From assembly GCA_009392195.1 (NCBI GenBank), contig VFGY01000039.1:1-50024 (forward strand): a DNA stretch of 50,024 nt, given 5' to 3'. The notes beneath the pieces are model-generated. The model ran no database searches. It had not been told where the DNA came from and saw nothing but the letters and a program-made list of their open reading frames with translations. Source of the stretch: SAR202 cluster bacterium (GTDB lineage Bacteria; Chloroflexota; Dehalococcoidia; Lucifugimonadales; OSU-TB39). Shown one piece after another: positions 6,862 to 44,118 of this stretch (positions are counted from its first letter, which is position 1; each line of letters begins with the position of its first letter). The position numbers were made by a program, and so were the translations under genes.

Positions 6862-7611
6862 TTAATAAGTAGCTCTTCCGCCACTGATGTCAAAAGTAGC
6901 TGCGGTAGTGAAAGAGCATTCATCTGACGCTATCCACCATACCAATTCGGCTAGTTCTTCAATTTTAGCGGTTCGACCCATTGGTATTTTATTTACCATA
7001 TAATCAACTTGTTCTTGTGTTATTTGAGAGAGTAATTTGGTTTCTACAACTGCAGGAGTGATGCAGTTAACTGTAATACCTGAGGTAGCGAGTTCTTTTC
7101 CAAGAGATTTAGTTAATCCTATGATTGCAGCCTTAGTAGATGAATATGGTACCATCCCGGGATTTCCTTCTTTACCAGATATAGAGGATATATTGATAAT
7201 TCTTCCATATTTTTCTTCTAGCATATAAGGTATTGCATATTTACAGAATAAAAATGTACTTCTTAAATTTATGTTATAGGCTCTGTCCATTTCTTCAATT
7301 GGTTGTTCCCAGATTTTGCCGGCAATCCCTGCTATTCCTACATTGTTGATTAAGATATCAATTTTGCCCCAAGAATCAATTAATTTAGCGATACTTAATT
7401 TTGAAGTTTTGATTTCTTCAACATCACCTATGTGGACCATAGTTTCCACTCCAAGAGATTCAAGTGAAGATTTAGCTATGTCTGCTTGTTCTTTATTAAT
7501 ATCAACAATCATCACTTTGCACCCTTCTTTTCCAAATTTGGTAGCAAGTCCGAAACCAATCCCATCAGCTCCACCAGTGATTAGTACCGTTTTGTTTTTT
7601 CTGTTATTCAA
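6862..7611 (-). CDS. SDR-family NAD(P)-dependent oxidoreductase
   Basis: 249 residues, the classical short-chain dehydrogenase length. The cofactor loop is TGGADGIG at 12-19, the structural NNVG at 89-92, and the catalytic Ser-Tyr-Lys are S142 (ISSISG), Y156 and K160 (YSSTK). Asp37 in VDINK at the end of strand 2 favours NAD(H) over NADP(H). The C-terminus ends in DISGG, normal for the FabG/glucose-1-dehydrogenase-like group. It lies 43 bases upstream of the PhyH-family gene on the same strand, so it may join the same small pathway of oxidation, hydroxylation and methylation. The substrate cannot be deduced. Confidence 0.88.
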   Translation of the reverse strand: MNNRKNKTVLITGGADGIGFGLATKFGKEGCKVMIVDINKEQADIAKSSLESLGVETMVHIGDVEEIKTSKLSIAKLIDSWGKIDILINNVGIAGIAGKIWEQPIEEMDRAYNINLRSTFLFCKYAIPYMLEEKYGRIINISSISGKEGNPGMVPYSSTKAAIIGLTKSLGKELATSGITVNCITPAVVETKLLSQITQEQVDYMVNKIPMGRTAKIEELAELVWWIASDECSFTTAATFDISGGRATY

Positions 7612-7991: not shown

Positions 7992-8054
7992 TCCGTTTAC
8001 ACTTTGTTATTATTGATTTGAGTGGAACCAAATAATCAAAATATAAGGAAAACA

Positions 8055-8720
8055 ATGAGCGCTGTAAGGACTCTGATACTATCATGGTTATTATTGATGA
8101 TTTTTGTGGTTTCGTGTGTCGATTTAAAATCTGTGGCAGATACGTCAATTAGCAGAGACGATTCAAATCTAGGTAAAGATAATCCCGTTGAATTGAAAAC
8201 CCCTTTACCATCTGAAACAAAAGATGCGAAGCTTGCACTAGTAGGTTTTTCAGAGGGTGATATAGCCCCAAAATTTACGCTAAAGACATCTAAGCAGTCT
8301 TCAGTTACTAGCGGGCAATTATTGAATGAATATGAAGGTTTATTTATTTTATTTTATTCTGATTGGTGAATGACGTGTCACGCCGAGTTGCGGCGCCTGT
8401 CTGAGATTTCGAAAAACAAATCTTCCAAAGTTGGATTTATTATTGTTGCGATTAATCCACTGGAAGATATAGACGAATTTTCTGAAGCTGTAACCCTGAG
8501 AATTAGTAACCAGTCGGGACAGATGTTTACTTACCTAGATACATCAAATGACGATTGGAACATCGCATTGCCATTGGGTCAAATGTTGTCTGATTTTAAG
8601 GTCCGTTCACAATCAACGAAAATTGCTATTGATAAGAATGGTTTGATTGTTTATAGAGATGGTTATGGGAAAGGCGATGAATGGTTGTGGGAGACAGTTT
8701 TTGATAAATTGGACAGTTGA
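8055..8720 (+). CDS. TlpA-like thioredoxin-fold lipoprotein, probable selenoprotein (Sec at in-frame TGA 8367-8369)
   Basis: One frame runs from ATG 8055 to TGA 8718-8720 with a single internal TGA at 8367-8369. Read as one protein it has 221 residues: a lipoprotein signal peptide with lipobox VVSC (C21), a short linker, then a redoxin domain (GDIAPKFTLKTSKQSS... from about 77). Directly before the TGA comes LFILFYSDW and directly after it MTCHAELRRL. TlpA/ResA proteins have FWAxWCxxCxxELPxL here, so the TGA occupies exactly the nucleophilic Cys of the CXXC: U105-M106-T107-C108. Both halves continue the same domain without frameshift, and a SECIS-like hairpin follows. Start: AAGGA at 8045-8049 precedes ATG 8055; an upstream GTG at 8022 is less likely. 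Probably a membrane-attached extracytoplasmic thiol/selenol oxidoreductase. Other genes here use TGA as a normal stop, so a changed genetic code is excluded. Confidence 0.8.
8367..8403 (+). promoter_or_regulatory. putative bacterial SECIS element following the Sec TGA
   Basis: A stem CGCCG (8381-8385) pairs with CGGCG (8391-8395) around the loop AGUUG. The loop begins 17 bases after the TGA and has G as its second base followed by U. Known bacterial SECIS elements have the apical loop roughly 16-37 bases after the UGA and a G in the first two loop positions. GAC (8372-8374) can pair with GTC (8399-8401) to extend the helix across an internal loop. This stretch is strikingly GC-rich in an AT-rich gene, as expected if RNA structure constrains it. 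SelB would bind it; no sel gene lies in this window. Confidence 0.65.
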
Positions 8721-14742: not shown

Positions 14743-17391
14743 ATGAATAGTGAACAAATACGCGAAGCATTTTTAAGTTATTTTGAAAGCAAATCTCATT
14801 TAAGAGTTCAAAGTGGTTCATTGATACCGGTAGGAGATCCTACTTTGCTTCTTACGACTGCTGGAATGGTGCAGTTCAAGCCATATTTTGTTGGTGAACA
14901 AATCCCCCCTAATAAACGATTAACTTCTTCTCAAAAATCTTTTAGAACTGTTGATATTGAGGAGGTCGGCGATAATACGCATCTAACATTATTTGAAATG
15001 TTGGGTAATTTTAGTATTGGAGATTATTTCAAAAGTGGAGCAGTTGAATTTGCTTTAGGTTGTTTAAATGATGCGTATGGGATAACTAAAGAAAAACTAG
15101 TTGCAACTGTACATCATTCTGATGATGAGGCAAGAAAGCTTTGGAATAAAGCTGGTATCCCTTTTGAACGAATATTTGAGTTCGGAGATGAAGATAATTG
15201 GTGGGGACCTGCTGGAGATGAAGGTCCATGTGGACCTTGTAGTGAACTGCATTATGATTTTGGCGAAAAATATGGTTGCCAAGAAACAGATTGCGGTCCT
15301 AATTGTAGTAATTTTGATGAAAAACAGAAAATGACTTGCACCAGATTTGTGGAATTATGGAATTTGGTGTTTATGCAGTTTTATCATCACCTTGATGGTA
15401 AACGTACAGATTTGCCTGCGCCTAGCGTTGATACAGGAATGGGTTTAGAAAGATTGGCGGTGATATTACAAAAATCGAAGAATATCTACGAAACTGATTT
15501 GTTTGTTCCTATTCTTAATAAAGTTTCTGAATTGACTGGGCTTGTTTATGGTGAAGATGGAAAACAAGCATATGCAATGAGAGTTTTAGCTGAGCATGCT
15601 CGAAGCGCTACTTTTCTTATAGCTGATGGAGTTGTACCAGGAAATGAAGGGAGAGGTTATGTTTTAAGACGTGTTTTGAGAAGGGCAATAAGGTATGGTA
15701 TTAACCTTGGTTTAAAGGGTTCATTTTTGAGTGAAATTGCAAAAGAAGTGGTTGATAAAATGAAACCTGCTTATCCTGAATTGGAAATACATGCAGATTT
15801 TGTATTCAGCGTAATGAAACTGGAAGAGCAAAATTTTCAGCGGACATACCTTACAGGTTATAACATGCTAAATGATTCATTAAAAGATAATGCCACTTTA
15901 TCTGGGGATATAGTATTTAAACTTTGGGATACTTATGGATTTCCAGTTGAAATCACTCAAGAAATAGCTGAAGAACAGAATATTAATGTAGATATTGATG
16001 GGTTTGACAAAAACATGCAAATGCAAAAGGAAAAAGCACGTTCATCTGCTAAATTTGGCGGAGATAGGTTTAAAATCAAAGTGTATGAGAATTTAGGAAT
16101 TAATTCGACCAAGTTCTTGGGATATGAAACATTAAAAACTTCTTCGGTAATTGTAGGGATGATAGCAGATGACGTTGCTGTTGAAGCAGCATCCGAAGGA
16201 ACTTCTGTTGAGGTGTTTTTGCTTGAAACGCCTTTTTACCCAGAAGGAGGTGGACAAGTTGGTGATGCTGGTGAGATAAATTCGAAATCTTGCATTGTGG
16301 AAATAAATGATACTCAAACAGTGATCCCTGGTCTTATTTCCCACTTCGGGATTGTAACTAAAGGAGAAATTACACTTGGGGAAACAGTTGACGCAAATGT
16401 AAACCCAATAAGGCGACAAGATAATGCTAGAAACCATACGGCGACGCATATGTTACATTCTGCTTTAAGAGTAATATTAGGTCCGCATGTAAGACAGGCA
16501 GGGTCGTTGGTTGCTCCGGATAGATTAAGATTTGATTTTTCGCACGTTTCACAAATGACCGATGATGAAATAAATCAGGTCCAAGGATTGGTGAACGAAA
16601 AGATTCGTCAAAATGCGAGAGTTTTGAAAAGCACAGATAAATATACTGATGCAGTAAAAAATGGAGCATTAGCATTTTTTGGTGACAAATATGACGATGA
16701 AGTTAGATTAATAGAAATCGCTAACGGCGATAGGTTTAGCTATGAGGTTTGTGGTGGTACTCATGTATCTAATACTGGGGAAGTTGGTTCTGTTTTTATA
16801 ACCAATGAATCAAGTATAGGTTCTGGTATGCGTAGAATTGAAGCGATTAGCGGTCGTAGAGCTGAACAATTGGTGGCAGAAACATTTAAGCGACAAAAAG
16901 ATCTTGCTAGATTATTGCAAATTTCAGAACAGGATTTACCTGATAAAATAGAATCAGTGCTTCAAGAATTTGAAGATTTAAAAAAATCCCATGGCGAATT
17001 GCAAGGGAAATTGTCAAAGGCGAGTGCCGAGAGTTTACTCGATCAAATTGAAGATATTGATGGGATACCATATATTGGTGGCATATTAGCAGTTACTGAT
17101 TCCGACCAACTTCGTGAAATAGGAGATTGGTTAAGAGATAAAATGGTTAGAGGAATTGTTGCTTTGGGGGCGATTTTAAATGAGCGTCCTAGTTTAGTAG
17201 TGATGGTTAGTTCCGATTTGGTAAAAGAAGGATTTGATGCGGGTTCGATTGCTCGTGCATCTGCAAAATTGATGGACGGTGGTGGTGGCGGTGGTTCAGC
17301 AACAGCACAGGCTGGAGGTAAAAATCCAGACGCCTTAAATTCTGCAATAGATGAAATTCCTAGACTAATTGTTGAAACTAAAAGGAAATAA
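14743..17391 (+). CDS. alaS: alanine-tRNA ligase
   Basis: 882 residues, full length for AlaRS. The N-terminal class II catalytic domain starts SEQIREAFLSYFESKSHLRVQSGSLIP with TTAGMVQFKPYF and RTVDIEEVGDNTHLTLFEMLGNFSIGDYF. The editing domain has the zinc motif HTATHMLH with CGGTHV later, and the C-terminal C-Ala domain contains a Gly run (GGGGGG) ahead of ATAQAGGKN. It charges tRNA-Ala in the cytoplasm and hydrolyses mischarged Ser/Gly. A weak AAGGA lies upstream of ATG 14743. The stop codon directly abuts the ATG of ruvX, so alaS, ruvX, aroE and aroKB form one operon. A terminator-like hairpin lies just ahead. Confidence 0.97.
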   Translation: MNSEQIREAFLSYFESKSHLRVQSGSLIPVGDPTLLLTTAGMVQFKPYFVGEQIPPNKRLTSSQKSFRTVDIEEVGDNTHLTLFEMLGNFSIGDYFKSGAVEFALGCLNDAYGITKEKLVATVHHSDDEARKLWNKAGIPFERIFEFGDEDNWWGPAGDEGPCGPCSELHYDFGEKYGCQETDCGPNCSNFDEKQKMTCTRFVELWNLVFMQFYHHLDGKRTDLPAPSVDTGMGLERLAVILQKSKNIYETDLFVPILNKVSELTGLVYGEDGKQAYAMRVLAEHARSATFLIADGVVPGNEGRGYVLRRVLRRAIRYGINLGLKGSFLSEIAKEVVDKMKPAYPELEIHADFVFSVMKLEEQNFQRTYLTGYNMLNDSLKDNATLSGDIVFKLWDTYGFPVEITQEIAEEQNINVDIDGFDKNMQMQKEKARSSAKFGGDRFKIKVYENLGINSTKFLGYETLKTSSVIVGMIADDVAVEAASEGTSVEVFLLETPFYPEGGGQVGDAGEINSKSCIVEINDTQTVIPGLISHFGIVTKGEITLGETVDANVNPIRRQDNARNHTATHMLHSALRVILGPHVRQAGSLVAPDRLRFDFSHVSQMTDDEINQVQGLVNEKIRQNARVLKSTDKYTDAVKNGALAFFGDKYDDEVRLIEIANGDRFSYEVCGGTHVSNTGEVGSVFITNESSIGSGMRRIEAISGRRAEQLVAETFKRQKDLARLLQISEQDLPDKIESVLQEFEDLKKSHGELQGKLSKASAESLLDQIEDIDGIPYIGGILAVTDSDQLREIGDWLRDKMVRGIVALGAILNERPSLVVMVSSDLVKEGFDAGSIARASAKLMDGGGGGGSATAQAGGKNPDALNSAIDEIPRLIVETKRK

Positions 17392-17805
17392 ATGACCATT
17401 TTAGGTTTAGATGTAGGTGATAAGAAGACAGGTGTTGCATTAAGTGATGAGTCTGGGATTATCGCTTTTCCTTTGGATACTCTAACTTCATCTAGTGACA
17501 ATATTACAGAAATAAGGGATCTTATAGATAAATATAATGTGAGGGAGATAGTTGTAGGTATGCCATATACCTTATCGGGAAACATTGGTGCTCAGGCAAA
17601 CAGAGTTGAGGAGTTTATAAAAAAGCTTAATGAAGCCATAAATTTGCCGGTGATTAAAATAGATGAAAGATTTACGACCCAAGAAGCTAAACGAATTACA
17701 AGTGAGCATAAAATAAAAAGCAAAAAAAAAATGATTGGCAAGTGGACTGATGATGCATTAGCAGCTTCGATAATTTTGCAAAGTTATTTAGATTATTCTA
17801 GATAA
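17392..17805 (+). CDS. ruvX: putative pre-16S rRNA nuclease / Holliday junction resolvase (YqgF/RuvX)
   Basis: 137 residues, the normal YqgF length. The RNase H-like fold begins with ILGLDVGDKKTGVALSDESG (catalytic Asp in LDVG). The second region is EIVVGMPYTLSG; IDERFTTQEA and a final DDALAASIILQSYLD supply the other acidic residues. The protein is linked to 16S rRNA 5' maturation and was first annotated as a resolvase. It begins immediately at the alaS stop codon, a pairing seen in many bacteria. Confidence 0.93.
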   Translation: MTILGLDVGDKKTGVALSDESGIIAFPLDTLTSSSDNITEIRDLIDKYNVREIVVGMPYTLSGNIGAQANRVEEFIKKLNEAINLPVIKIDERFTTQEAKRITSEHKIKSKKKMIGKWTDDALAASIILQSYLDYSR

Positions 17806-27227: not shown

Positions 27228-27674
27228 TTAACTGATCCATTTATCAATTTCCCGTGAATAGTCTGACAATTCGGATTTAGAAAAGAATAGGTTTATTTCT
27301 TTTTCGGCCGCTTCAGTGGAATCGGATCCGTGAATTAAATTCATTCCTACAGTTATAGCAAAATCTCCTCTAACTGTACCCGGTGCAGCTTCTACTGGAT
27401 TTGTTGTTCCCATCATAGATCTCATAATTGTTACTGCATTTGTTCCTTCAACACATATTGCAACTAATGGAGAAGATGTCATAAATCCCTTCAATTCCTC
27501 GAAAAATGGTTTATCCACGTGTGCCGAATAATGTTTTGAAGCCAAGTCATCGTTCATTCGCAACATTTTTAATCCAGTGATTTTCAGACCTTTTTCTTCG
27601 ATTGATGATATTATTTTCCCAATCATTAATCTTTGTACTGCATCCGGCTTAATTAATACTAAACTTTTATTCAA
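27228..27674 (-). CDS. ndk: nucleoside diphosphate kinase
   Basis: 148 residues. It starts NKSLVLIKPDAVQRLMIGKII and contains the phosphohistidine in NLIHGSDSTEAAEKEINLFF. It equalises NTP pools by ping-pong phosphate transfer through that His. The start appears to be TTG at 27672-27674 with GGAGG about ten bases upstream. It follows tsaB by 18 bases in a tsaE-tsaB-ndk operon. Confidence 0.96.
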   Translation of the reverse strand: MNKSLVLIKPDAVQRLMIGKIISSIEEKGLKITGLKMLRMNDDLASKHYSAHVDKPFFEELKGFMTSSPLVAICVEGTNAVTIMRSMMGTTNPVEAAPGTVRGDFAITVGMNLIHGSDSTEAAEKEINLFFSKSELSDYSREIDKWIS

Positions 27675-27692: not shown

Positions 27693-28376
27693 TCAATTTG
27701 AATTTTTATTTGCATTTGCTATTTGAGAAGATCTCAAATAAATTGGCTCAAGTGTTAATGGGTTATCAACTGAATTGCTGCCTAATTTTTTATTGCCCAG
27801 ATTATATATAGAGATGCATTTGCGGGTTGGGCGAGTTGAAGACAAAAGTTGAATTTGTTTTACCGTTGATGTGGGGTCAGAATAGATGTCAAAAGCTCCT
27901 TCTCCGCATATGGATGTATTATTTGGTATTTCGTCAATTAATTCTTTATGGTTCATTATGTTCATCTCAGGTGCATCATTAATGTCGTAATCAGATTCAG
28001 AAAATATCCCTACGTAATACTTTAGTTTACCTGCTGGTATTATTGCCCAACAATTTTTGTGCTGAGATTTAAACGGTTCAAATTCTACCAGTAAACTGTT
28101 TATCCCAATTAGCGAAATGTTAAGAGTCGACGCTATAGCCTTAGCGACGCTTACTCCTACGCGTGTTGCACTAAATGAACCTGGTCCATTAACAACAAAT
28201 ATGCTATCAAGGTTTGATTGTTTTTCCCTAGATGAATCAAATAATTCTTTTATATTTGGTAAAAGTTCAACAGAATGATTTTTTTGAGAAACCCAGTTGA
28301 TTTCTTTTAAAATATGTTCGTTCTTGACTAATCCTACCGAAGCATTTCTAGTAGATGTGTCTATTAACAAAATCAT
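27693..28376 (-). CDS. tsaB: tRNA threonylcarbamoyladenosine biosynthesis protein TsaB
   Basis: 227 residues of the ASKHA fold without the metal His of TsaD. The start ILLIDTSTRNASVGLV is the phosphate-1 loop, and VVNGPGSFSATRVGVSVAKAIA is the most conserved TsaB stretch (usually GPGSFTGLRIG). TsaB pairs with TsaD and TsaE to make the t6A37 modification. Its ATG overlaps the tsaE stop by 4 bases. TsaD and TsaC are not in the window. Confidence 0.93.
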   Translation of the reverse strand: MILLIDTSTRNASVGLVKNEHILKEINWVSQKNHSVELLPNIKELFDSSREKQSNLDSIFVVNGPGSFSATRVGVSVAKAIASTLNISLIGINSLLVEFEPFKSQHKNCWAIIPAGKLKYYVGIFSESDYDINDAPEMNIMNHKELIDEIPNNTSICGEGAFDIYSDPTSTVKQIQLLSSTRPTRKCISIYNLGNKKLGSNSVDNPLTLEPIYLRSSQIANANKNSN

Positions 28377-31743: not shown

Positions 31744-34434
31744 TTAATTGACGTTTTCTATCCTAACGGCACATACTTTATATTCAGGTATTTTAGAGGT
31801 TGGGTCATATGCAGAGTTTGTCAAAAAATTCGCTGCGAATTTGTTTAGCTTTACGAATGGAATGAAAATCTCGCCAGATTTCATTTTATCTGAGAAAACT
31901 ATTTTACCTTCTAATTTGCCTCTTTTGGAAACTATCCTTGCTATCTCTCCATCATTGATGGAATATCTATTCCCATCATTAGGATTAATATTGATCTCCA
32001 ACTCAGGTGCTCTTTTCAATAATTCTTCTGACCTTCTAGTGATGGTGCCTCCATGCCAATGGTATAAAATTCTCCCGGTATTCAAAATTAAAGGGAATCT
32101 TTTGCTGGGCATTTCTTCAGCAGGTGGACCTTGCTTGAAGCCCACAAATTTTGCTCGTTCTCCTCTTGGGAAACTATCAGCATATAAGAATCTTGTTCCA
32201 GGATGATTTGGTTCTGGACAAGGCCATTGTATGCCACCTTCATTCGTTAATCTTTTGTGATTAATCCCTCTCATTATAGGTGTTAAAGCAGACATTTCAT
32301 CCCATATTTCTGAGGTGTTAGTATATTCAAATTGCTTTTCTAAATTCAGGTCCAATTTTCTGGATATGCTTTTTGCTATTTCACAAATTATTTTCCAATC
32401 TGGTTTTGTGTTTCCTACAGGGTCAATGATTTTATTTACCATTTGTACTCTTCTTTCACTATTAGTGAAAGTACCTGTTTTTTCTGCAAAAGTGGTTGCC
32501 GGCAATACTACATCAGCGATTTCAGCTGTTTCATGCAAAAATATATCTTGCACTACTAGGAACTTTAAATTCATAAGGGCTTTGCGTGCTTCTGTGAGGT
32601 TTGGTTCACTCAACAGAGGGTTTTCTCCCGTTATATACATGGCTTTTAATGTACCTTTATGCGCTTCTTCTATCATATCGGTAACTACGAGACCTTTCAC
32701 CATTGGCAAATCAGGTGCTTGCCATGCGTTTTTGAATTTTTCGTTGTTGGAATCGGTAAATGGTTGATAACCAGGGTAAGAGGTTGGAAGACATCCTGCA
32801 TCTCCACATCCTTGTACATTATTTTGGCCTCTAAGAGGTGATATTCCATTTCCAGGTTTTCCTAATTGACCAGATACGAACGCTAAATTTAACAAAGAAT
32901 GTGCATTTGCGGTTCCATTTGTATGCTGCGTGACACCCATTCCCCATATTAAACATGATCCACTGAATGGAGGACGTGCATAGTATCTGGCTGCTTGAGC
33001 AATGTCATCTTCAGGTATTCCTGTGATTTTTGCACCTTTAGACAAACTATATTCATTTATAATTTGCTTCCATTGTTCATAACCTTCTGTTCTTTCTTTG
33101 ATAAATGTTTCGTCCGAAAGTTGTTCGTCTAATATAACTTTTGCCATAGTGTTTAGAAGAGCTACATCAGTACCAGGGTTTGGTCTTAACCAAAGGTCTG
33201 CAAAATCACACATTTCGATTTTTCTTGGGTTAATTATTATTAGTTTTGCACCTTTTTCAACTACCGCTCTACGCATTCGTGCAGCGGCTACTGGATGATT
33301 TGAATTGGTGTCAGAACCAACCACTACTAAGCAACCGGCTTCTTCATAATCGATATAAGAATTACTAGTTGCACCACTACCTAAAGACTCAAGCATAGCT
33401 TCAACTGAAGGCGAGTGGCATAATCTAGTACAGTGATCTATGTTATTTGTTGCCATTACAGCACGAGCAAATTTTTGCTGGATATAACCGTCTTCGTTTG
33501 TTGCTTTAGCAGAACAAAGTGTTGCAAATTCTGAACCTCTATATATGCTCAATTGATTTGTAACATGTTCTATGGCTTCTTCCCATGAGGATTCAGTTAA
33601 TATTCCATTTTTCCTAATTAAAGGTTGCTTTAATCTATCCTTGTGATGAATATATTTGAATCCGAATCTTCCCTTTACACATAGCATTCCTTTACTTGAT
33701 TCGTTCAAAGGATTATCTAACATTGCTATTATTTTTTGGTCAGAGTTGACTTGTGCAGTGATACCACACCCGACGCCACAGTATGGACAGGTTGTTTCTA
33801 TTTCTTTAGTGGTGTCGGTTTCTCCTTCTTTCAGCTCAATCGCTCCTGTTGGACATACAGATAAACACTGACCGCATGTCGTACAAACAGAATCAATTAA
33901 CGGCGAATCCATAAAAGTACCTATCCGACTATTTGTACTTGCACCTAAAAAGTCGATTGCACCAATGAATTGGTGACCTGTTTGGCATGCTTGTGTGCAT
34001 CTTCCACATAATATACAGTCATCCATTGAAATATTGAATACAGGATTGCTTGTGTCTGCTGGTTGTCTTACTCTAGAGTCAAACTCTGGAGTTTTTATTT
34101 GATGAATTTGTTTAGCTGTAGTTAATTCTTTGTATGATTTAGATTTGTTTTTAGGAAGCATCCCCAAGGTTAATTCTAGGACACCTTTCCGTATCTTTTT
34201 AGGTTTTTCTGTGTCAGTCCAAATTTTCATGTCTGGTTGAGCTTTTACTGAACAAGATGCAACTACTCCATTAATCCCATCGATTTCTACCAAGCAGGTA
34301 CGACATGCACCTATAGGTTTCATGTCTGGATCTTTACATAATTGGGGGATATATATTTTTGAATCATTTATTACGTCTAATACTGATTTGCCTTCAGATG
34401 CTTTGATTTTTTTACCGTTTAGTGTTAGTTCCAT
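31744..34434 (-). CDS. fdhA: NAD-linked formate dehydrogenase, catalytic alpha subunit
   Basis: 896 residues. The order of domains is: NuoG-like [2Fe-2S] ferredoxin (C33, C44, C47, C61); an intermediate region; two [4Fe-4S] ferredoxin motifs DDCILCGRCTQACQ and VCTTCGQCLSVCPTGA; then the molybdopterin oxidoreductase with its own [4Fe-4S] motif CPYCGVGCG; and the C-terminal dinucleotide-binding domain. The active-site residue is Cys (C339, codon TGC) followed by His in TRLCHSPSVEAM, so this is a Cys-type, not Sec-type, enzyme. It oxidises formate to CO2 at a Mo or W bis-MGD. GGAG stands ahead of ATG 34434. Genes for the FMN/NAD and [2Fe-2S] subunits lie directly upstream. Confidence 0.95.
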   Translation of the reverse strand: MELTLNGKKIKASEGKSVLDVINDSKIYIPQLCKDPDMKPIGACRTCLVEIDGINGVVASCSVKAQPDMKIWTDTEKPKKIRKGVLELTLGMLPKNKSKSYKELTTAKQIHQIKTPEFDSRVRQPADTSNPVFNISMDDCILCGRCTQACQTGHQFIGAIDFLGASTNSRIGTFMDSPLIDSVCTTCGQCLSVCPTGAIELKEGETDTTKEIETTCPYCGVGCGITAQVNSDQKIIAMLDNPLNESSKGMLCVKGRFGFKYIHHKDRLKQPLIRKNGILTESSWEEAIEHVTNQLSIYRGSEFATLCSAKATNEDGYIQQKFARAVMATNNIDHCTRLCHSPSVEAMLESLGSGATSNSYIDYEEAGCLVVVGSDTNSNHPVAAARMRRAVVEKGAKLIIINPRKIEMCDFADLWLRPNPGTDVALLNTMAKVILDEQLSDETFIKERTEGYEQWKQIINEYSLSKGAKITGIPEDDIAQAARYYARPPFSGSCLIWGMGVTQHTNGTANAHSLLNLAFVSGQLGKPGNGISPLRGQNNVQGCGDAGCLPTSYPGYQPFTDSNNEKFKNAWQAPDLPMVKGLVVTDMIEEAHKGTLKAMYITGENPLLSEPNLTEARKALMNLKFLVVQDIFLHETAEIADVVLPATTFAEKTGTFTNSERRVQMVNKIIDPVGNTKPDWKIICEIAKSISRKLDLNLEKQFEYTNTSEIWDEMSALTPIMRGINHKRLTNEGGIQWPCPEPNHPGTRFLYADSFPRGERAKFVGFKQGPPAEEMPSKRFPLILNTGRILYHWHGGTITRRSEELLKRAPELEININPNDGNRYSINDGEIARIVSKRGKLEGKIVFSDKMKSGEIFIPFVKLNKFAANFLTNSAYDPTSKIPEYKVCAVRIENVN

Positions 34435-36503: not shown

Positions 36504-38342
36504 TTATTTTTGCAGTACATAATCAAGTGAGAGTGACTGTATTTTTGTTTTGGTTATTGTTCCTTTTTGTGTCCATCCTCTCGCGTTATAATACGATGAT
36601 ATCATTGTATTCAGCTCTTCCCTAGTCAAATTATTAGTTTCACCCGAATCATTTGGATTTGGAGAATTGAAAACCCTTGTTGGTAAAGTGTCATCAGATG
36701 TCCTCCATCCTTCTCTGATATTAAATAATTTTTTCAAGTTGTTTATTCTTTCTCCAGATTCTTCCAATTGTTTTGGTGAACATTCTTTACCTGTTATAGA
36801 TGAATATACCTCGGATGATTCTTCATAAAAATCATCAAATACTTTACGTACAAATTTGCACCAAATCAAAGAGTCCATCACTGCAGAATAATCTTCACTT
36901 TTTTTCGTTATTATACCTTTGTCTAATTTATTGTTTTCGGTGTTAGATAAGATGGAGAAATCTGATTCATATGCTGAAGAACGGTTATGGCATGCACCTT
37001 TAGTACTTACTGCTAATGCAAGCGCCATAGTTTTTAATTTACGTGGGTCATATCCCGGCATTTCTAATCCTTTAACATGCATTGCCCAAGTATCACTTGA
37101 TTTCCCTACTTGCTCTGATGACCTTTTGCTGCCTTCACTTAACAGTCTGCCTATTCCTTTTTGCTCCGCTATCATTTGAATTAGATTTGGTAATATTTTT
37201 TCATTGCCAAAATACAATTCCAATCCGCCAGTGTCTGTTTGCGTCAAGACCCTTTTCTCATATGATTCCATAGCCCAAGCAATAGTTGCTCCTGTACTGA
37301 TTGTATCTAGGCCTAATTGGTCACATAAATTTGACGACTCAATTAGTATGTCGGGATTACTAATTCCTATTAATGGTCCTAATGCATACGCTGTTTCGTA
37401 TTCGAGTCTACTTTTAATTGTTGATCCTGATTCAGTTCTGGAAGTGAATATTTTTTCACATCCAATTGTACAGCTGGCGCAATGGGCCGAACCTAATTTA
37501 TGAGTCAGTTCAGTTGTTTCAGCTGTTATCGGTGCTATATTGGCGAATTTAGTTTGTTGAAAATTGTAACTTGGAAGGACATTGAGTCTGTTGAATACTG
37601 ACAGATTAGATATCGTTCCTAAAGTACGATATTTTTCCGTTGCGGGACCAAGACTTTTTTTATTTAGATTTGCCCGAATTCTATTTATTGAAGATTCGTC
37701 ATAAATACTTGTTTTATTGGTTCCATGTATTGCTATAGCCTTAAGGTTTTTTGAACCCATTACGGCTCCCACACCTGTCCTTCCTGCTTGTCTACCTCCG
37801 TCGTTAGCAATACTAGCGAATCGAACCATGTTTTCTCCCGCTATACCTATGCTACAAACTGAAAATTGGTTCCCAACTAAACTTTTAACTTGGGATTCAG
37901 TTTGGGAGGTTGTTTTAGATGAGAGGTGTTTAGCATCGATGAATTTTACTGAATTATTTTTGATTGTTAGGAGTGTGTTTGACTGTCTTTTACCAGTAAT
38001 TATTATTGCATCATAACCAGTTTTCTTTAACTCTAAAGCCATATAACTTGAAGAAAGAGAATCTCCTATTAATCCTGTTAAAGGAGATTTTGTGGCTATA
38101 GCGAATTTACTAGATGTTGTTAACCGGGTACCTACCAATGGGCTTGAAGCGAAAATTAGAGGATTAGAAGGTTCAAGCGGTTCTGTGCCTTCAGGACAAT
38201 ATTTATGTAGTAGATAAGTTGCTAGGCCGGTCCCTCCTATAATAAGCTCTAGGACTTTATTGTCGATATCAACTTCTTGTGTATGTTCGTTTGATAGATT
38301 TATATGGAGAGCTTTGTTGTGATATCCAAAATTACGCATCAT
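36504..38342 (-). CDS. aor: aldehyde:ferredoxin oxidoreductase (AOR family, tungsten enzyme)
   Basis: 612 residues, AOR length. The family start is GYHNKALHINLSNEHTQEVDID, followed by a pterin-binding region TGLIGDSLSSSYMALELKKTGYDAIIITGK and GRQAGRTGVGAVMGSKNLKAIAI. The [4Fe-4S] ligands are in CASCTIGCEKIF with a fourth Cys near the C-terminus (SLIWCKFV), and MPGYDPRKLKTMALA is also typical. Members oxidise aldehydes to carboxylic acids, or do the reverse, using a tungsten bis-pterin without guanine nucleotide. It overlaps the MoaD-like gene by 4 bases. The electron partner may be ferredoxin, or the NuoEF-like subunits encoded just downstream, as in bacterial NAD-linked AORs. Confidence 0.92.
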   Translation of the reverse strand: MMRNFGYHNKALHINLSNEHTQEVDIDNKVLELIIGGTGLATYLLHKYCPEGTEPLEPSNPLIFASSPLVGTRLTTSSKFAIATKSPLTGLIGDSLSSSYMALELKKTGYDAIIITGKRQSNTLLTIKNNSVKFIDAKHLSSKTTSQTESQVKSLVGNQFSVCSIGIAGENMVRFASIANDGGRQAGRTGVGAVMGSKNLKAIAIHGTNKTSIYDESSINRIRANLNKKSLGPATEKYRTLGTISNLSVFNRLNVLPSYNFQQTKFANIAPITAETTELTHKLGSAHCASCTIGCEKIFTSRTESGSTIKSRLEYETAYALGPLIGISNPDILIESSNLCDQLGLDTISTGATIAWAMESYEKRVLTQTDTGGLELYFGNEKILPNLIQMIAEQKGIGRLLSEGSKRSSEQVGKSSDTWAMHVKGLEMPGYDPRKLKTMALALAVSTKGACHNRSSAYESDFSILSNTENNKLDKGIITKKSEDYSAVMDSLIWCKFVRKVFDDFYEESSEVYSSITGKECSPKQLEESGERINNLKKLFNIREGWRTSDDTLPTRVFNSPNPNDSGETNNLTREELNTMISSYYNARGWTQKGTITKTKIQSLSLDYVLQK

Positions 38343-38644
38343 CCACCTGCTTGGCTTGAGAAGATTAATATATGGTCTCCATCTTGAAGTTCAAAAGAAT
38401 TTTCTGATAGGAATGATACACCGTTTAAGTTTGCAATATAGCTTGATTGTAGTTCGGCACCACTTTGTTTAATGACTGGTCCAACTAAGTCGGAGTATGT
38501 ATCAGCCAAAGGTTTTGCTATATCATTGACATTTGCAATTCTTGGTATTTTTAATTTTATTTCTTTTTGATTCGTAATAAGTTGGGCCTGTCCAAATAAT
38601 TCTATTGTAATTTCTACCAATTCTTTTGGATTAGTGTTCGTCAT
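38339..38644 (-). CDS. MoaD/ThiS-family sulfur carrier protein
   Basis: 101 residues of the ubiquitin-like beta-grasp fold, ending in AGG, the di-Gly tail that carries thiocarboxylate sulfur. It is longer than normal MoaD (about 80), as the AOR-linked MoaD paralogues often are. It overlaps the AOR gene by 4 bases, so it probably serves molybdopterin or tungstopterin synthesis for that enzyme. MoaE, MoeB and MoaA are not in the window. Confidence 0.88.
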   Translation of the reverse strand: MTNTNPKELVEITIELFGQAQLITNQKEIKLKIPRIANVNDIAKPLADTYSDLVGPVIKQSGAELQSSYIANLNGVSFLSENSFELQDGDHILIFSSQAGG

Positions 38645-38673
38645 AAATATTGATTTCTTTATATATTCAATTC

Positions 38674-39321
38674 TTAATTATTTGATTTGAGGTTTAAGAT
38701 TTGTTTCGCAATGGCTAGATCTTTTTCATTATTTATATTGAAAAAGCTCAATAAATCAGGGTCATGTTTTTTTATTATTTGATTGTTTAATTTTTTTATA
38801 TTAACCTCTTTAAAGAAATTAGATATCTTCAATTGATTTTTATCAAGATACTTCTTTATATGAGGTAAGCATTTTTTAGAATATAGTGCATGAGTTGGTT
38901 CTGGGAAATCATCTAGATATGGTACTACGGCATCATGGCCTGTCCGTAACTCTATCATTTTTTCGATTAATTTAGTATTTATGAAAGGCATATCACATGC
39001 TACGACTAGACTCCAATTTTGTTGGGCATGGTTAAGTCCGGTAAATATACCACCGAGTGACCCACAATTGGGATATTGATCTAGAACTATTTTTATATTG
39101 CAGATGGGTATTTTTCTTGCTTTTTCTTCGGTGTTGACTACAACGGTAATATCATTCGTGATTTGTAATAATTTTTTGTGAATTCGCGATAGCAAAGTTT
39201 GATTTTCAATTGGTTCAATTGACTTGTCTCTTCCTAATCGTTTACTTAATCCGCCAGCTAGGATAATACCTGAAATATGGTTTTCAGATGTATGTTGTCT
39301 CTCCTGTGTCTTTTGTGTCAT
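38674..39321 (-). CDS. mobA: molybdenum cofactor guanylyltransferase
   Basis: 215 residues. Signature IILAGGLSKRLGRDKSIEPI (LAGGxSxRxGxDK) with LGGIFTGLNHAQ and VVACDMPFI matches MobA. It adds GMP to Mo-molybdopterin to form MGD, which the formate dehydrogenase needs but AOR does not. Its first ATG lies 38 bases inside the end of the moeA fusion gene. A later start would remove a leader of about 15 residues, which is not seen in most relatives. Confidence 0.88.
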   Translation of the reverse strand: MTQKTQERQHTSENHISGIILAGGLSKRLGRDKSIEPIENQTLLSRIHKKLLQITNDITVVVNTEEKARKIPICNIKIVLDQYPNCGSLGGIFTGLNHAQQNWSLVVACDMPFINTKLIEKMIELRTGHDAVVPYLDDFPEPTHALYSKKCLPHIKKYLDKNQLKISNFFKEVNIKKLNNQIIKKHDPDLLSFFNINNEKDLAIAKQILNLKSNN

Positions 39322-41215
39322 ATCCTCCCAAGCCTATTATATCTTGCTTATACTCATCACTTTTAATCAAATTAATTAATGGTTCCAAAAATACGGATCC
39401 GTAGTAATCTTCAGGGATTACTAAATCGAATTTCTCCTGAGTTACTGGTATGAAATCTAAGTCAAATGCTTTTGATGCTGATAGAAGTCCCAACCCTACA
39501 TCTGCTAATCCCGATTCTACAGTAGCTGCTACTCCTAAGTGCGTAATCTCTTGTCGCTGGTATCCTTTAATACTTTTACTATTGATTCCTTTAGATTTTA
39601 ATTCATAGTCAAATAATATTCTCGTTCCTGAACCAAGTTGTCTGTTCACAAATTCCACATTAGGTTTGGAAATATCTGAAATAGATTTGATGTGTTTGGG
39701 GTTTCCTTTTTTTACTATTAAACCTTGGCTTCTGTACGCGAGGTTTATCAAAATAAATTTTTGCCCAGGCAAAAACCTATTAATATGAGGGATATTGTAT
39801 CCACCTGTTTTTTCATCGAGTAAATGAGAACCAGCAATGTGGCTTTCTTTTCTCTTTAATGCCATTAGTCCGCCAATGCTGCCTATATTTGAAGATATTA
39901 GTCTTATGCCGTGATTTGCGTAAAGTTTGCTGATTATTAAATCAATGCTGGGGTCGTGACTGCCGGCTAAGAATATACTTTTGGTTATATCATTATCATT
40001 ATTAAACAAAATCACGTTGACAGTTGTCCCAGATTCTATTCCTTCAGTCAGCCTAGGTATTTTGAGAAAACCGTCAGATTTTACCAACGACATTAAAACT
40101 CCTGCGCCCTGCTGAGTGGGGCAAACTATAAATTTGCCATCGATTTTGCCTACATTAACTCTTATAAATTCATCTTCGCCAATAGACGAGGCTATCTTTT
40201 TAGTTGTAGTAGCTGTGATGATTTTTTCTTGAGATTCTATTAAACCAAGCTTTTTATTTATGATTGGTTTAACTATTAATTGTGTAGTTAATGCTGCGGA
40301 TACTGGGTACCCAGGAATACCAATAACAGGCTTTTCATTAATTATCCCAAGAACTACTGGGTGACCTGGTTTTATTGCAATCCCATGTACGATCACCTCT
40401 CCTAAGTTGTCTATGATGCTAGAAGTATAATCGTCTCTTCCAGCTGATGAGCCAGCGTTTATTAAAATAATGTCAAAGCCTCTGATATTTTCCTTTATTG
40501 TTGATTTTAATTTTTTTTCATCGTCAGGTATGGGGGGGTGAAGAGTAGGGGATGCTCCAAATTCTGTCATCATTGAACCTAACATTATTGAGTTAGTATC
40601 TACTATTTGTTCTTTGCGTATTCGCTTTGCTCCAATAGGAATAATTTCATCACCAGTTGGTATAATTAAAACTTTCGGTGGTATATGAACGCTAATATTC
40701 GTGATTCCTGCTGCTGCACAAGCTGCGATATCTTGTGGCCTTATTTTATGGTTTTGAGGTAATACAAGTTCAGTTGCTACTATATCCTCACCTATTTTCC
40801 TGATGTGGTTATAAGGTGGTACTGGTTGTCTTATTTCAATTTCATCATTAATGGTTTTACTAGTATGTTCAATCATAATTACCGCATCGAATCCGATAGG
40901 TACAGGATCTCCAGTGTCAACTTGGATAGCCTGAGTTCCAATGTTTAAATATATGGGATTCGTTTCAGTAGCTGAAACAGTTTCTTTTGCTTTGACCGCA
41001 AATCCATCCATAGCAGATGAGTCATAGTTTGGAGAAGAATTAACGGCCCACACAGCTTCAGCCGTGATCTTCGCCAGAGATTCATTTATTCTAATGAGTT
41101 TCTTTTTTTGCGAAAGCGATTTTTTTTTAGATAAAGTCTTGAAATAAGACTCAATAGCATCTTCTAAAGGAATATCGTTAAGGTAATAATCTTGATTTCT
41201 TTTTCTTGGTTTCAT
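39284..41215 (-). CDS. moeA: MoeA molybdopterin molybdenumtransferase fused to a periplasmic-binding-protein-like domain
   Basis: 643 residues. Residues 1 to about 405 are MoeA: DSSAMDGFAVKA, VDTGDPVPIGFDAVIMIE, IRPQDIAACAAAGI, IPTGDEII, INAGSSAGRDD, KPGHPVVLG and IPGYPVSA. From about 415 the chain becomes a type 2 periplasmic-binding-protein or LysR-substrate-like domain (FLAGSHDPSIDLI, IGGLMALKRKESHIAGSHLLDE, VEFVNRQLGSGTRILFD, DVGLGLLSASKAFDLDFIPV) without signal peptide. This extra domain is known in archaeal and some bacterial MoeA and may sense or bind molybdate or tungstate. MoeA inserts the metal into adenylated pterin. Confidence 0.9.
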   Translation of the reverse strand: MKPRKRNQDYYLNDIPLEDAIESYFKTLSKKKSLSQKKKLIRINESLAKITAEAVWAVNSSPNYDSSAMDGFAVKAKETVSATETNPIYLNIGTQAIQVDTGDPVPIGFDAVIMIEHTSKTINDEIEIRQPVPPYNHIRKIGEDIVATELVLPQNHKIRPQDIAACAAAGITNISVHIPPKVLIIPTGDEIIPIGAKRIRKEQIVDTNSIMLGSMMTEFGASPTLHPPIPDDEKKLKSTIKENIRGFDIILINAGSSAGRDDYTSSIIDNLGEVIVHGIAIKPGHPVVLGIINEKPVIGIPGYPVSAALTTQLIVKPIINKKLGLIESQEKIITATTTKKIASSIGEDEFIRVNVGKIDGKFIVCPTQQGAGVLMSLVKSDGFLKIPRLTEGIESGTTVNVILFNNDNDITKSIFLAGSHDPSIDLIISKLYANHGIRLISSNIGSIGGLMALKRKESHIAGSHLLDEKTGGYNIPHINRFLPGQKFILINLAYRSQGLIVKKGNPKHIKSISDISKPNVEFVNRQLGSGTRILFDYELKSKGINSKSIKGYQRQEITHLGVAATVESGLADVGLGLLSASKAFDLDFIPVTQEKFDLVIPEDYYGSVFLEPLINLIKSDEYKQDIIGLGGYDTKDTGETTYI

Positions 41216-41220
41216 GTTTT

Positions 41221-42453
41221 TTAATTAATAAATACATCAACTAAATCTCCTGAGTAAACCCCGGATTTGTTGATGGGTACTACGACTATTCCATCCGACC
41301 TTATTAAAGTGTAAATTAAGTTTGATTTTCCAAATACTGGCTGTGCCATCAATGTACCTGACTGTGAATTGAATAGTTTTACCGGTACATGTTCTTCCCG
41401 TCCATTGATTGATGGGATATCTGTAGTAAGAATCGCTTTACTTGGATTAATTATTTCTTGAGTACGACGTAGGATATTATTGATTGCTTTTTTTACCAAC
41501 AATTGGAAAATTATCATTGCCGAAACTGGATTTCCGGGTAGCCCAAAAATAAGTTTGTCTCTCGCCGACCCTATAATTGAAGGTTTACCTGGTTTGTGTG
41601 CAAGTCCATGCATTAGGATTCCTGGCTTTCCAAGATTCGATATGACTTTAGAGGTTAAATCTCGGCTACTAGTTGAACTTCCGGCAGATATTACTACTAT
41701 AGAACATTTTGATAATGCTTTTTTTGCTGTTTCAAATTGAATTTCAAATTCATCTTTGTTTATCCCAAAGATTATTGGTTCGCCTCCATGTTTTTGTATT
41801 AGAGATGAAATTGTATATGAGTTAATATCTCTGACCTGCCCTTTTATGGGTTCTGTTTTTGGGTCTATTAATTCATCACCGGTAGAAATAACTCCAATTT
41901 TTGGAGGTTGAAATACTGGTATTTGTGTTATGCCGAGAGCTAGTAATCCTCCAATATCTTGAGGTCTAATCTTATGTCCAACCTCAAATATAATATCGTT
42001 TTCTTTTATGTCTTCCCCAATTTTGATGATATTTTCGCCGGGTGCAACAGGCTTGATGATTTCTATTAAAGACTGGTCTATCAACTCCGTGTATTCTACC
42101 ATTACTACTGCATCTGCTGATTCAGGTATCATCCCGCCAGTGAAAATCCTCGATGCTTCACCAGTATTTAGGCGGGTATTGGGTGTAGAACCCATCTTTA
42201 TTTCTGAAACCACATGTAAATATGAAGGTTGACTTTGAGATGCACCGTAGGTGTCAGACGCTCTGACTGCATATCCATCCATAGTGGACCTTTCAAAATT
42301 TGGTAGATTGGATGATGATTTTATGGGCTTGGATATAGTTCTTGAAATAGAGTCAACAGTATTTACATTTACCGTCGGAGGTAAAGCCGAGGGATGCTCG
42401 TCAATGATTTTTAATGCTTTTTCAATTGGTGTTACTTTCAGAAAATCACTCAT
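41221..42453 (-). CDS. moeA: MoeA molybdopterin molybdenumtransferase (second copy)
   Basis: About 410 residues, normal single-domain-set MoeA. Family stretches are NFERSTMDGYAVRASD, TGEASRIFTGGMIPESADAVVMVE, KIGEDIKENDII, ISTGDEL, ISAGSSTSSRDLTS, KPGKPSIIG, FGLPGNPVSA and the C-terminal beta barrel. ATG 42453 is taken; a TTG three codons upstream is possible. It lies five bases before the fused copy. Pairs of MoeA proteins are common where an organism uses both Mo and W enzymes, so one could load Mo (formate dehydrogenase) and one W (AOR). Confidence 0.92.
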   Translation of the reverse strand: MSDFLKVTPIEKALKIIDEHPSALPPTVNVNTVDSISRTISKPIKSSSNLPNFERSTMDGYAVRASDTYGASQSQPSYLHVVSEIKMGSTPNTRLNTGEASRIFTGGMIPESADAVVMVEYTELIDQSLIEIIKPVAPGENIIKIGEDIKENDIIFEVGHKIRPQDIGGLLALGITQIPVFQPPKIGVISTGDELIDPKTEPIKGQVRDINSYTISSLIQKHGGEPIIFGINKDEFEIQFETAKKALSKCSIVVISAGSSTSSRDLTSKVISNLGKPGILMHGLAHKPGKPSIIGSARDKLIFGLPGNPVSAMIIFQLLVKKAINNILRRTQEIINPSKAILTTDIPSINGREEHVPVKLFNSQSGTLMAQPVFGKSNLIYTLIRSDGIVVVPINKSGVYSGDLVDVFIN

Positions 42454-42492
42454 TGTTTCCAAAATTAATATCTTTTGAAATTCAAACTTAGT

Positions 42493-44118
42493 TTAAACGA
42501 AACCTAGTAAATTCCCCTCAGAATCTACGTCAAGTTGCCTAGGTTCTTTTGGTAATCCAGGCATCGTCATTATACTTCCAGCAGTAGGATAAATGAAACC
42601 TGCACCAAGAGAAGCTCGAAGGTCAGAGATTTGAAAAGCGTAGTCTTTCGGAGCTCCTTTTCTCATAGCCTTATCTGAAATTGATAAATGAGTTTTGGCC
42701 ATACATATGGGCATTTTATCCCAACCTAATTTGGTAAATTGTTCTCTTTTGCGACTTGCTGTACGCGTCCAGTTTACCGATGAAGCCCCATAAACTGATT
42801 TTGCTATTGAGGATACTTTATCTTCTATCGAATCTTCCAATGAGTACATATAATTACATTTTGGTGATATTTCTTTTGAGGCTTCTACCACACTGTTTGC
42901 AAGTTCAATTCCACCAGAACCGCCATCAGCATAAACCGAGCTTTCAACTGCTGTAACTATGGGTGCATTTTTGAGAATTGATTTTACTTGCGAAACTTCT
43001 TCAATAGTGTCTGAAGGATGTTTATTAATTGCTATAACAACCGGTAAATTAAATGAATTTATCACTGAAGCTAGATGGGTTACATTAGAAATTCCTTTAT
43101 CTATAGCTTCATGATTTGGTTTTTCTAAATCATCCAACTTAATCCCACCGTGATATTTTATTGCTCTAAGTGTCACAACAAGTACTACAGAAGATGGTGT
43201 TATACTACTTGATCGAGTTTTAATGTGCATGAATTTTTCGAAACCTAAATCGGCTCCAAATCCGGCTTCGGTAATGACATAGTCAGAATATCCCAAAGCT
43301 AGTTTGTCAGCTATTATTGAACTGCATCCGTGGGCTATGTTTCCAAAGGGTCCTGTATGCACGAATGATGGTTGTCCTTCAAATGTCTGGACCAAATTTG
43401 GGTGAATTGCTTGTCTCAATATAGACATGAGTGGGCCTGTAGCTTTTATATCTTCAGCTGTTATTGGGGTGCCGCTATCAGAATAGCCAACTACGGTTCT
43501 AGACAATCTCAATCTCAGGTCATCTAAATCTTTGCTTAATGCCATTATTGCCATAATCTCAGATGCAGCTATTATGTCAAAACCAGTCTCTCTTAAAGGT
43601 CCATTTGAAGATGATCCTGTACCTGTTACTATATTTCGAAGTGCTCTATCTTGCATGTCGGTAACTCTTCGCCACGTTATGTTATAAGGTTCAAATCCTG
43701 TGGAGGATTTTTGATATACATAATTATCAGTAATTGCTGCTAGTAAATTATGGGCGGATGCAATCGCATGAGCATCGCCAGTAAAATGAATATTTATTTC
43801 GTCTTCAGGTTTGAGTGTTGCTTTACCACCGCCACTGCCTCCTCCTTTAATTCCAAAAATCGGTCCTAACGATGGTTCTCTTAAATTTGCAACTGCATTG
43901 AATCCTATTTTGGATAAAGCTTGCGTTAAACCAATTGAAGTGGTTGTTTTTCCTTCTCCTGCAGGTGTAGGAGTCATTCCTGTTACTAAAATCAGCTTAC
44001 CAGATTTTCCACCTTCTCCGATCGCGTCAGTGTGAATTTTTGCTTTGTATTTTCCATAAGGCATTACATGTTTAGGGGCTATGTTTAATTCAGATGCGAT
44101 TTTAGTTATTTCTTTCAC
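42493..44118 (-). CDS. fhs: formate-tetrahydrofolate ligase
   Basis: 541 residues, slightly short of the usual 555 but complete. The ATP site TPTPAGEGKTTTSIGL, then REPSLGPIFGIKGGGSGGGKA, INIHFTGDAHAI and FGADLGFEKF are hallmarks. It makes 10-formyl-THF from formate and ATP. The start is GTG at 44116-44118 with AGGTG upstream. Placed directly ahead of the moeA-mobA-aor-fdh genes in the same direction, it lets the cell either assimilate formate or, in reverse, release it for oxidation. FolD and MetF are not in the window. Confidence 0.95.
   Translation of the reverse strand: MKEITKIASELNIAPKHVMPYGKYKAKIHTDAIGEGGKSGKLILVTGMTPTPAGEGKTTTSIGLTQALSKIGFNAVANLREPSLGPIFGIKGGGSGGGKATLKPEDEINIHFTGDAHAIASAHNLLAAITDNYVYQKSSTGFEPYNITWRRVTDMQDRALRNIVTGTGSSSNGPLRETGFDIIAASEIMAIMALSKDLDDLRLRLSRTVVGYSDSGTPITAEDIKATGPLMSILRQAIHPNLVQTFEGQPSFVHTGPFGNIAHGCSSIIADKLALGYSDYVITEAGFGADLGFEKFMHIKTRSSSITPSSVVLVVTLRAIKYHGGIKLDDLEKPNHEAIDKGISNVTHLASVINSFNLPVVIAINKHPSDTIEEVSQVKSILKNAPIVTAVESSVYADGGSGGIELANSVVEASKEISPKCNYMYSLEDSIEDKVSSIAKSVYGASSVNWTRTASRKREQFTKLGWDKMPICMAKTHLSISDKAMRKGAPKDYAFQISDLRASLGAGFIYPTAGSIMTMPGLPKEPRQLDVDSEGNLLGFV

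Follow-up and report, generated by a model that had tools for sequence, protein, structure and literature searches.

Does the in-frame TGA in a thioredoxin-like gene of a SAR202 bacterium mark a broken gene, or is it read as selenocysteine (Sec), and, if so, what kind of redox protein would this yield? The deep ocean holds SAR202 bacteria in abundance, and the gene in question lies in a stretch of 50,024 nucleotides from a SAR202 cluster genome (assembly GCA_009392195.1, contig VFGY01000039.1), hereafter called the window. The coding sequence runs from 8055 to 8720 on the forward strand, including a terminal TGA at 8718-8720, and would encode a Sec-redoxin lipoprotein of 221 residues if the TGA at 8367-8369 is read as Sec 105, the first position of a UxxC motif. 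An earlier note on this DNA had claimed that a lone TGA interrupts an otherwise continuous frame at the first Cys of a thioredoxin CxxC motif, and both points were borne out: the codon is the sole internal stop of the frame, and the translation around it reads FYSDWUMTCHAELRRL (in longer context, LFILFYSDWUMTCHAELRRL), with Cys 108, the motif's other active-site residue, at 8376-8378. The ATG at 8055 is preceded by AAGGAAAAC, and the Sec-read protein begins with MSAVRTLILSWLLLMIFVVSC. As the note had also foreseen, a standard caller cuts the gene in two, since translation table 11 gives one ORF at 8022-8369 (115 aa) and another at 8370-8720 (116 aa). Because gene callers split it in this manner, the family is easily overlooked.

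The identity of the codon in relatives bears directly on this question. Our comparison set comprised 64 distinct members, defined as deduplicated domains of at least 90 bits (a chosen cut; the next score was 70) among the matches listed from the genome set, the named loci and the search of the order, together with 20 added stretches. A match had to cover 90 or more profile positions, which leaves out L019 and L113, and L120 and L121 also lie outside the set. Of the 20 stretches, L111, L112 and L113 were chosen for having no listed TGA, a choice that raises the non-Sec share of the set. At the TGA codon, 57 members have TGA, six have Cys and one has Trp. The second Cys, which we propose to be the resolving residue, is present in all 64, a Trp close to the C-terminus in 62, and a Glu three residues past the second Cys in 60. 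Cys-containing homologues, which the earlier note had sought as a check, thus exist, and the relatives are not decayed past the codon, the condition that it had named as refuting, as judged by their second Cys and C-terminal-region Trp.

One alternative is that an ordinary TlpA-like gene with Cys at this place has been broken by a nonsense mutation or misread in sequencing. Apart from the one TGA the frame is that of a normal gene, and the codon does change in isolated cases, the relative L112 having TGG. An accident of this kind is nonetheless very improbable and close to refuted, for the codon is TGA in so many distinct members from many genomes, and a covarying hairpin and a full set of Sec machinery, both described below, accompany it. 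Still harder to credit is the idea that two real genes meet here, the upstream one ending at the TGA and the downstream one starting at the ATG at 8370. That ATG does lie directly 3' of the TGA in the window, but the domain match crosses the TGA codon, the relatives shown mostly have a Pro or Gly codon at the place of this ATG rather than a start, and a split would separate the two active-site residues of the redoxin.

Reading UGA as Sec calls for dedicated machinery, and the earlier note had proposed looking for selA, selB, selC and selD in the same genome. All four are present in the assembly. The selA, selB and selD matches (529.6, 329.5 and 364.8 bits, respectively) are above curated cut-offs, and selC scores 69 bits, with anticodon TCA according to ARAGORN. 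RF01852 is also above its cut-off in five of 14 control genomes, so the selC call rests on the 69 bits together with ARAGORN. These sel genes sit on contigs other than that of the window, in an assembly with a contamination estimate of 9.2%. The assembly's selD has an in-frame TGA of its own, across which SelD reads NCAGUAAK. Among 40 genomes, the window's own alongside 39 relatives, matches were found in 21: 17 with TGA, two with Cys (G030 and G022), one with a fragment at a contig end (G036) and one with other redoxins only (G016). All 17 Sec-form genomes pass the cut-offs for both selB and selC. Of the two Cys-form genomes, G030 has neither gene above cut-off and G022 retains both, so the link between Sec form and machinery is not strict.

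A SECIS-type hairpin, CGCCG-AGUUG-CGGCG, lies at 8381-8395 on the forward strand, with its loop at 8386-8390. It starts 11 nt past the TGA, overlapping codons at the start of the first active-site helix, and the distance from TGA to loop is 16 nt. A recent review sets limits for the bacterial SECIS at a loop of 3-9 nt, a stem of 4-16 bp, a G in the first two loop positions, a UGA-to-loop distance of 16-37 nt and a minimum free energy of at most -7.5 kcal/mol (PMC13188914). The window hairpin falls within these limits, with a 5 bp stem, the loop AGUUG and the 16 nt spacing; a sixth stem pair, frequent in relatives, is A-C in the window, which forms five. Its folding energy is -10.8 kcal/mol in 51 nt, as part of a larger fold, -8.2 in 29 nt and -7.1 for the bare 15 nt. 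The energy of the 51 nt past the TGA is no better than that of shuffled sequences (z 0.09; 94 of 200 shuffles as good); the case for the hairpin is made by covariation in relatives rather than by energy.

Among 19 Sec members, 92.1% of cells were paired and 12 were changed on both sides (score 0.391, against 0.159 when shuffled); among all 57, the corresponding figures were 87.7% and 49 (0.419 against 0.165), with none of 500 shuffles as high and slid partners reaching at most 0.142. Double-sided changes occur at all six stem pairs of the family. In fixed register, 36 of the 57 form six pairs, eight form five, five form four and eight form three; the 13 members with only three or four of the six pairs mostly have, by eye, one extra base in the 3' arm. 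For the Cys members, four belonging to family f23 form one to three of the six pairs, and L071 and L111 form four. A covariance model built from the 56 other Sec members gave a sole match in the window, at 8367-8408 (32.7 bits, E 2.6e-6), and a search of the whole genome up to E 1 again gave this place alone (1.1e-4). As a chance test, the published bSECIS constraints were coded and applied to every in-frame TGA of the window flanked on each side by 40 or more open codons, 18 in all: the TGA at 8367 had the top-scoring hairpin and the sole all-GC stem, and weaker hairpins followed five of the remaining 17. No Rfam family reached its gathering score in the window, and ARAGORN found no tRNA there.

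Machinery, conservation of the TGA, the covarying hairpin and the existence of Cys forms agree, and it is on this agreement that we base the Sec reading, in support of the earlier note's claim of a selenoprotein with Sec in place of the CxxC nucleophile. The internal stop is thus very probably read as Sec, with SelB and the Sec tRNA presumably acting on the UGA at 8367-8369 because of the SECIS hairpin. We are highly confident, on the evidence of sequence comparison, that the window gene would encode a Sec-containing redoxin lipoprotein, a confidence that does not extend to the direction of its chemistry.

Nature thus offers the family in Sec, Cys and Trp versions, some of which have the hairpin and some of which lack it, and its spread can be followed at several levels. 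Fifteen loci in named genomes, titled SAR202 cluster, Dehalococcoidia or Chloroflexi, comprise 11 with Sec and four with Cys, a count that is not independent of the others because 11 of the 15 are contigs already in the genome set. Within the order, the profile at 1e-10 finds matches in 232 of 250 genomes, canonical TlpA-type proteins being counted as well. In a sample of 400 genomes from the phylum, seven match at 1e-22, the window's own among them; two of these, L120 and L121, from genomes outside the class, have TGA at the codon and Ala at the cis-Pro position discussed below, and the remaining four have no internal stop. On a tree of 74 rows, with a midpoint root for drawing only, the Sec label needs five changes and the Cys label three; our own reading of this tree, which is drawn without an outgroup, is that Sec is ancestral in the family and has been lost several times. 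Two family copies lie close together on one contig in G005, G010 and several other genomes. The Trp version, L112, has TGG in place of TGA with the hairpin letters retained, and a TGA copy is found on the same contig (G249:C282).

What kind of protein, then, surrounds the Sec? The window protein passes the gathering scores of both Redoxin PF08534 (33.7 bits against 26.6) and AhpC-TSA PF00578 (32.2 against 26), and both matched stretches cover the TGA. With a profile of 21 relatives, the best PDB sequence matches were 2ls5 (2e-20) and 2m72 (1.1e-19), both titled uncharacterized, followed by the ResA chains 4nmu (1.6e-19), 3c71 (5.5e-18) and 1st9 (5.4e-17). The AlphaFold2 model, built from 16 sequences, has a mean pLDDT of 83.8, and Foldseek ranked the ResA structures 4nmu and 1st9 at the top. 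Profile matches, model and structure search thus all identify a thioredoxin fold of the TlpA/ResA type. Compared with its relatives, the window protein has some 14 extra residues at 8514-8549, the sole stretch of the model (residues 107-118) with pLDDT below 50. Seven NCBIfam families were listed for the window domain and none reached its own cut-off, the ResA model scoring 26.4 against 170 bits and the DsbE model 26.2 against 123.15. At the N-terminus, a hydrophobic stretch terminates in the lipobox-like FVVSC; the predicted lipoprotein signal spans 8055-8117 on the forward strand, with Cys 21 (8115-8117) as the acceptor. A comparable pattern occurs in 41 of the 63 members tested, 58 of which have a closed frame, and from this lipobox pattern we infer that the protein carries a lipid anchor. 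Taken together, these features suggest a TlpA/ResA-fold redoxin that bears a Sec-x-x-Cys site and is held by a lipid on the outer face of the cytoplasmic membrane.

The active site departs from its closest structural relatives at a second place. According to PMC2757866, the cis-Pro is conserved more strongly than CxxC across thioredoxin-fold groups, being present in thioredoxins and cytochrome maturation proteins, and peroxiredoxins have Arg instead. Alignment to ResA and among members places a QSTK stretch (8610-8621, forward strand) here, with Gln followed by Ser at the cis-Pro place, and in the profile alignment to ResA the window's Ser stands opposite Pro. The 64 members have Ser in 53 cases, Ala in eight, Pro in two and Asp in one, and Gln directly precedes this position in 55; ten lower-scoring redoxins of the same loci all have Pro. 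The QSTK stretch may be GPx-like. The active site would thus pair Sec with the loss of the most conserved proline of the thioredoxin fold. The earlier description of the protein as a TlpA-like lipoprotein therefore needs amending: fold and lipobox stand, and the cis-Pro of canonical TlpA/ResA proteins is absent. Two other redoxins with in-frame TGAs, L025 and L027 (G039 and G018), have a UPFC motif, and L025 retains the Pro, so there appear to be Sec redoxins of another kind in the same genomes.

The start of the active-site helix is also distinctive. In many Sec members the residues past the second Cys are RxELRR or RxELRS; the canonical L028 has RAEMPA here, and the f23 Cys members, which have no good hairpin, read TKELAEL, TRELAEL or TRELHEL. 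Because the Arg codons form the stem, it may be the RNA rather than the protein that sets the residues of RxELRR/RxELRS. We could not match this active site, with Ser or Ala for cis-Pro and a helix start overlapping the hairpin, among known kinds, compared by description.

Among known systems, the family shares with TlpA, ResA and CcmG (ResA 1st9 and 4nmu) the thioredoxin fold, an N-terminal redoxin part, a predicted membrane anchor, a CxxC-type motif (UxxC here, CxxC in the Cys forms) and the Glu past it; unlike them, it has Sec for the first Cys and Ser or Ala for cis-Pro, and the window domain falls below every listed NCBIfam cut-off. With peroxiredoxins and glutathione peroxidases it shares the superfamily and the AhpC-TSA gathering score, and with peroxiredoxins the replacement of the cis-Pro, theirs being Arg (PMC2757866). 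It differs from both in having UxxC rather than TxxC or TxxU, and Ser or Ala rather than Arg.

Sec redoxins as a kind are not new. The review, from 2026, counts 119 families or subfamilies of prokaryotic selenoproteins, with entries for a TlpA-like (cd02966) UxxC 'thiol-disulfide isomerase-like protein', a PF08534 UxxC 'redoxin family protein', a PF00578 UxxC 'Prx-like thiol:disulfide oxidoreductase' and a UGC TlpA form (PMC13188914). In addition, UxxC Prx-like and Trx-like families appear in papers on the Sargasso Sea and GOS (PMC1088965, PMC2398784). The window protein resembles these in carrying UxxC within a PF08534/PF00578 domain at passing scores, and its family, compared with the catalogued ones by description only, may already sit under a broad catalogued label. 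The earlier suggestion that no described family matches needs correcting to this extent: UxxC TlpA-like and redoxin kinds are catalogued. No description of the window's own family was found in the accessible literature on these kinds or on selenocysteine, cis-proline and thioredoxin. Likewise, the accessible literature combining SAR202 with selenoprotein, selenocysteine or selenium gave no account of SAR202 selenoproteins; one paper dealing with bins of sponge symbionts and their SelA and SelB was found.

As for function, the likely role is that of an extracytoplasmic thiol oxidoreductase. Sec would act as the attacking nucleophile, and the Cys three residues on would resolve it as a selenenylsulfide. 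PF02683 (DsbD/CcdA) had no match in the window's genome (10 of 14 controls positive), nor did VKOR (three of 14 controls positive); the searches cover these two families, and other electron donors are compatible with both negatives. Across the 40 genomes, PF02683 is above cut-off in 11, namely two of the 17 Sec-form genomes versus nine of the 23 others (Fisher p 0.079), and weaker matches occur in nine more; that the conduit is rarer in Sec-form genomes is suggestive at most. At G035:C81:8192-8734, a DsbD_TM (PF02683) match above cut-off contains an in-frame TGA and is possibly another selenoprotein.

The protein could be a plain disulfide reductase of TlpA/ResA type with Sec in its active site, served by an unrecognised membrane donor, in which the lost cis-Pro only tunes substrate choice; we would put this somewhat below an even chance. 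Its closest solved structures are of ResA type, the Glu past the second Cys recalls E80 of ResA after C77 (as named in PDB titles), and a canonical TlpA divergently adjoins the redoxin in six related loci. Such a reductase fits less well with the replacement of cis-Pro in 62 of 64 members, with a genome that has no PF02683 match and with the uneven distribution just described. We give a CcdA-independent, perhaps peroxidase-like role about the same weight as the plain reductase role and would infer at most a slight lean towards it, since the cis-Pro is missing, the Gln is conserved and no PF02683 conduit was found. More tentatively, and with a probability that we consider low, the family might form a separate class of extracytoplasmic UxxC redoxins, mostly Sec-based across one Chloroflexota order and present in two genomes outside the class, with neither cis-Pro nor a DsbD/CcdA conduit; its members would be lipid-anchored selenoperoxidases, or redox proteins recycled by an unknown donor, with a helix start (RxELRR) dictated by the SECIS element. 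An improbable further option is that, with the cis-Pro lost, selenolate and thiolate together bind a metal or Fe-S cluster, making the protein a carrier and no redox enzyme. PMC2757866 does allow that cis-Pro may prevent metal binding to CxxC; against this, none of the seven immediate-neighbourhood proteins scanned is metal-related, and redox chemistry is equally compatible with an exchange of Sec and Cys.

Using ORFs of at least 90 aa, the neighbourhood was compared between the window, over its first 18 kb, and the 15 named loci. No neighbour is common to all. A short-chain dehydrogenase (SDR) lies upstream at 6862-7611 on the reverse strand and shares 52-56% identity with the SDR that has the same relative place and orientation at five of the 15 loci (L055, L056, L057, L059 and L060); we regard it as shared neighbourhood and propose no role for it. 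The divergent canonical TlpA, with CxxC and Pro, adjoins the redoxin in the same five loci and in L063 (six of 15), and is not found at this place in the window; another TlpA-like gene with Pro is present elsewhere in the window's genome, on contig C64 (L024). Two further same-frame ORF pairs of the window, 27693-28376 with 27228-27674 (reverse strand) and 14743-17391 with 17392-17805, proved to be ordinary neighbours, matching TsaD and NDK, and alaS and RuvX, respectively. The window also carries, at 31744-34434 on the reverse strand, a formate dehydrogenase alpha subunit (TIGR01591, 748.7 against 666.25 bits). Near it, at 36504-44118 on the same strand, matches to a molybdopterin biosynthesis protein and formate-tetrahydrofolate ligase are above cut-off and one to aldehyde ferredoxin oxidoreductase is far below. 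Despite the Sec machinery, this FdhA has Cys 339, in TRLCHSP, where Sec-containing FdhA has U (UHxP).
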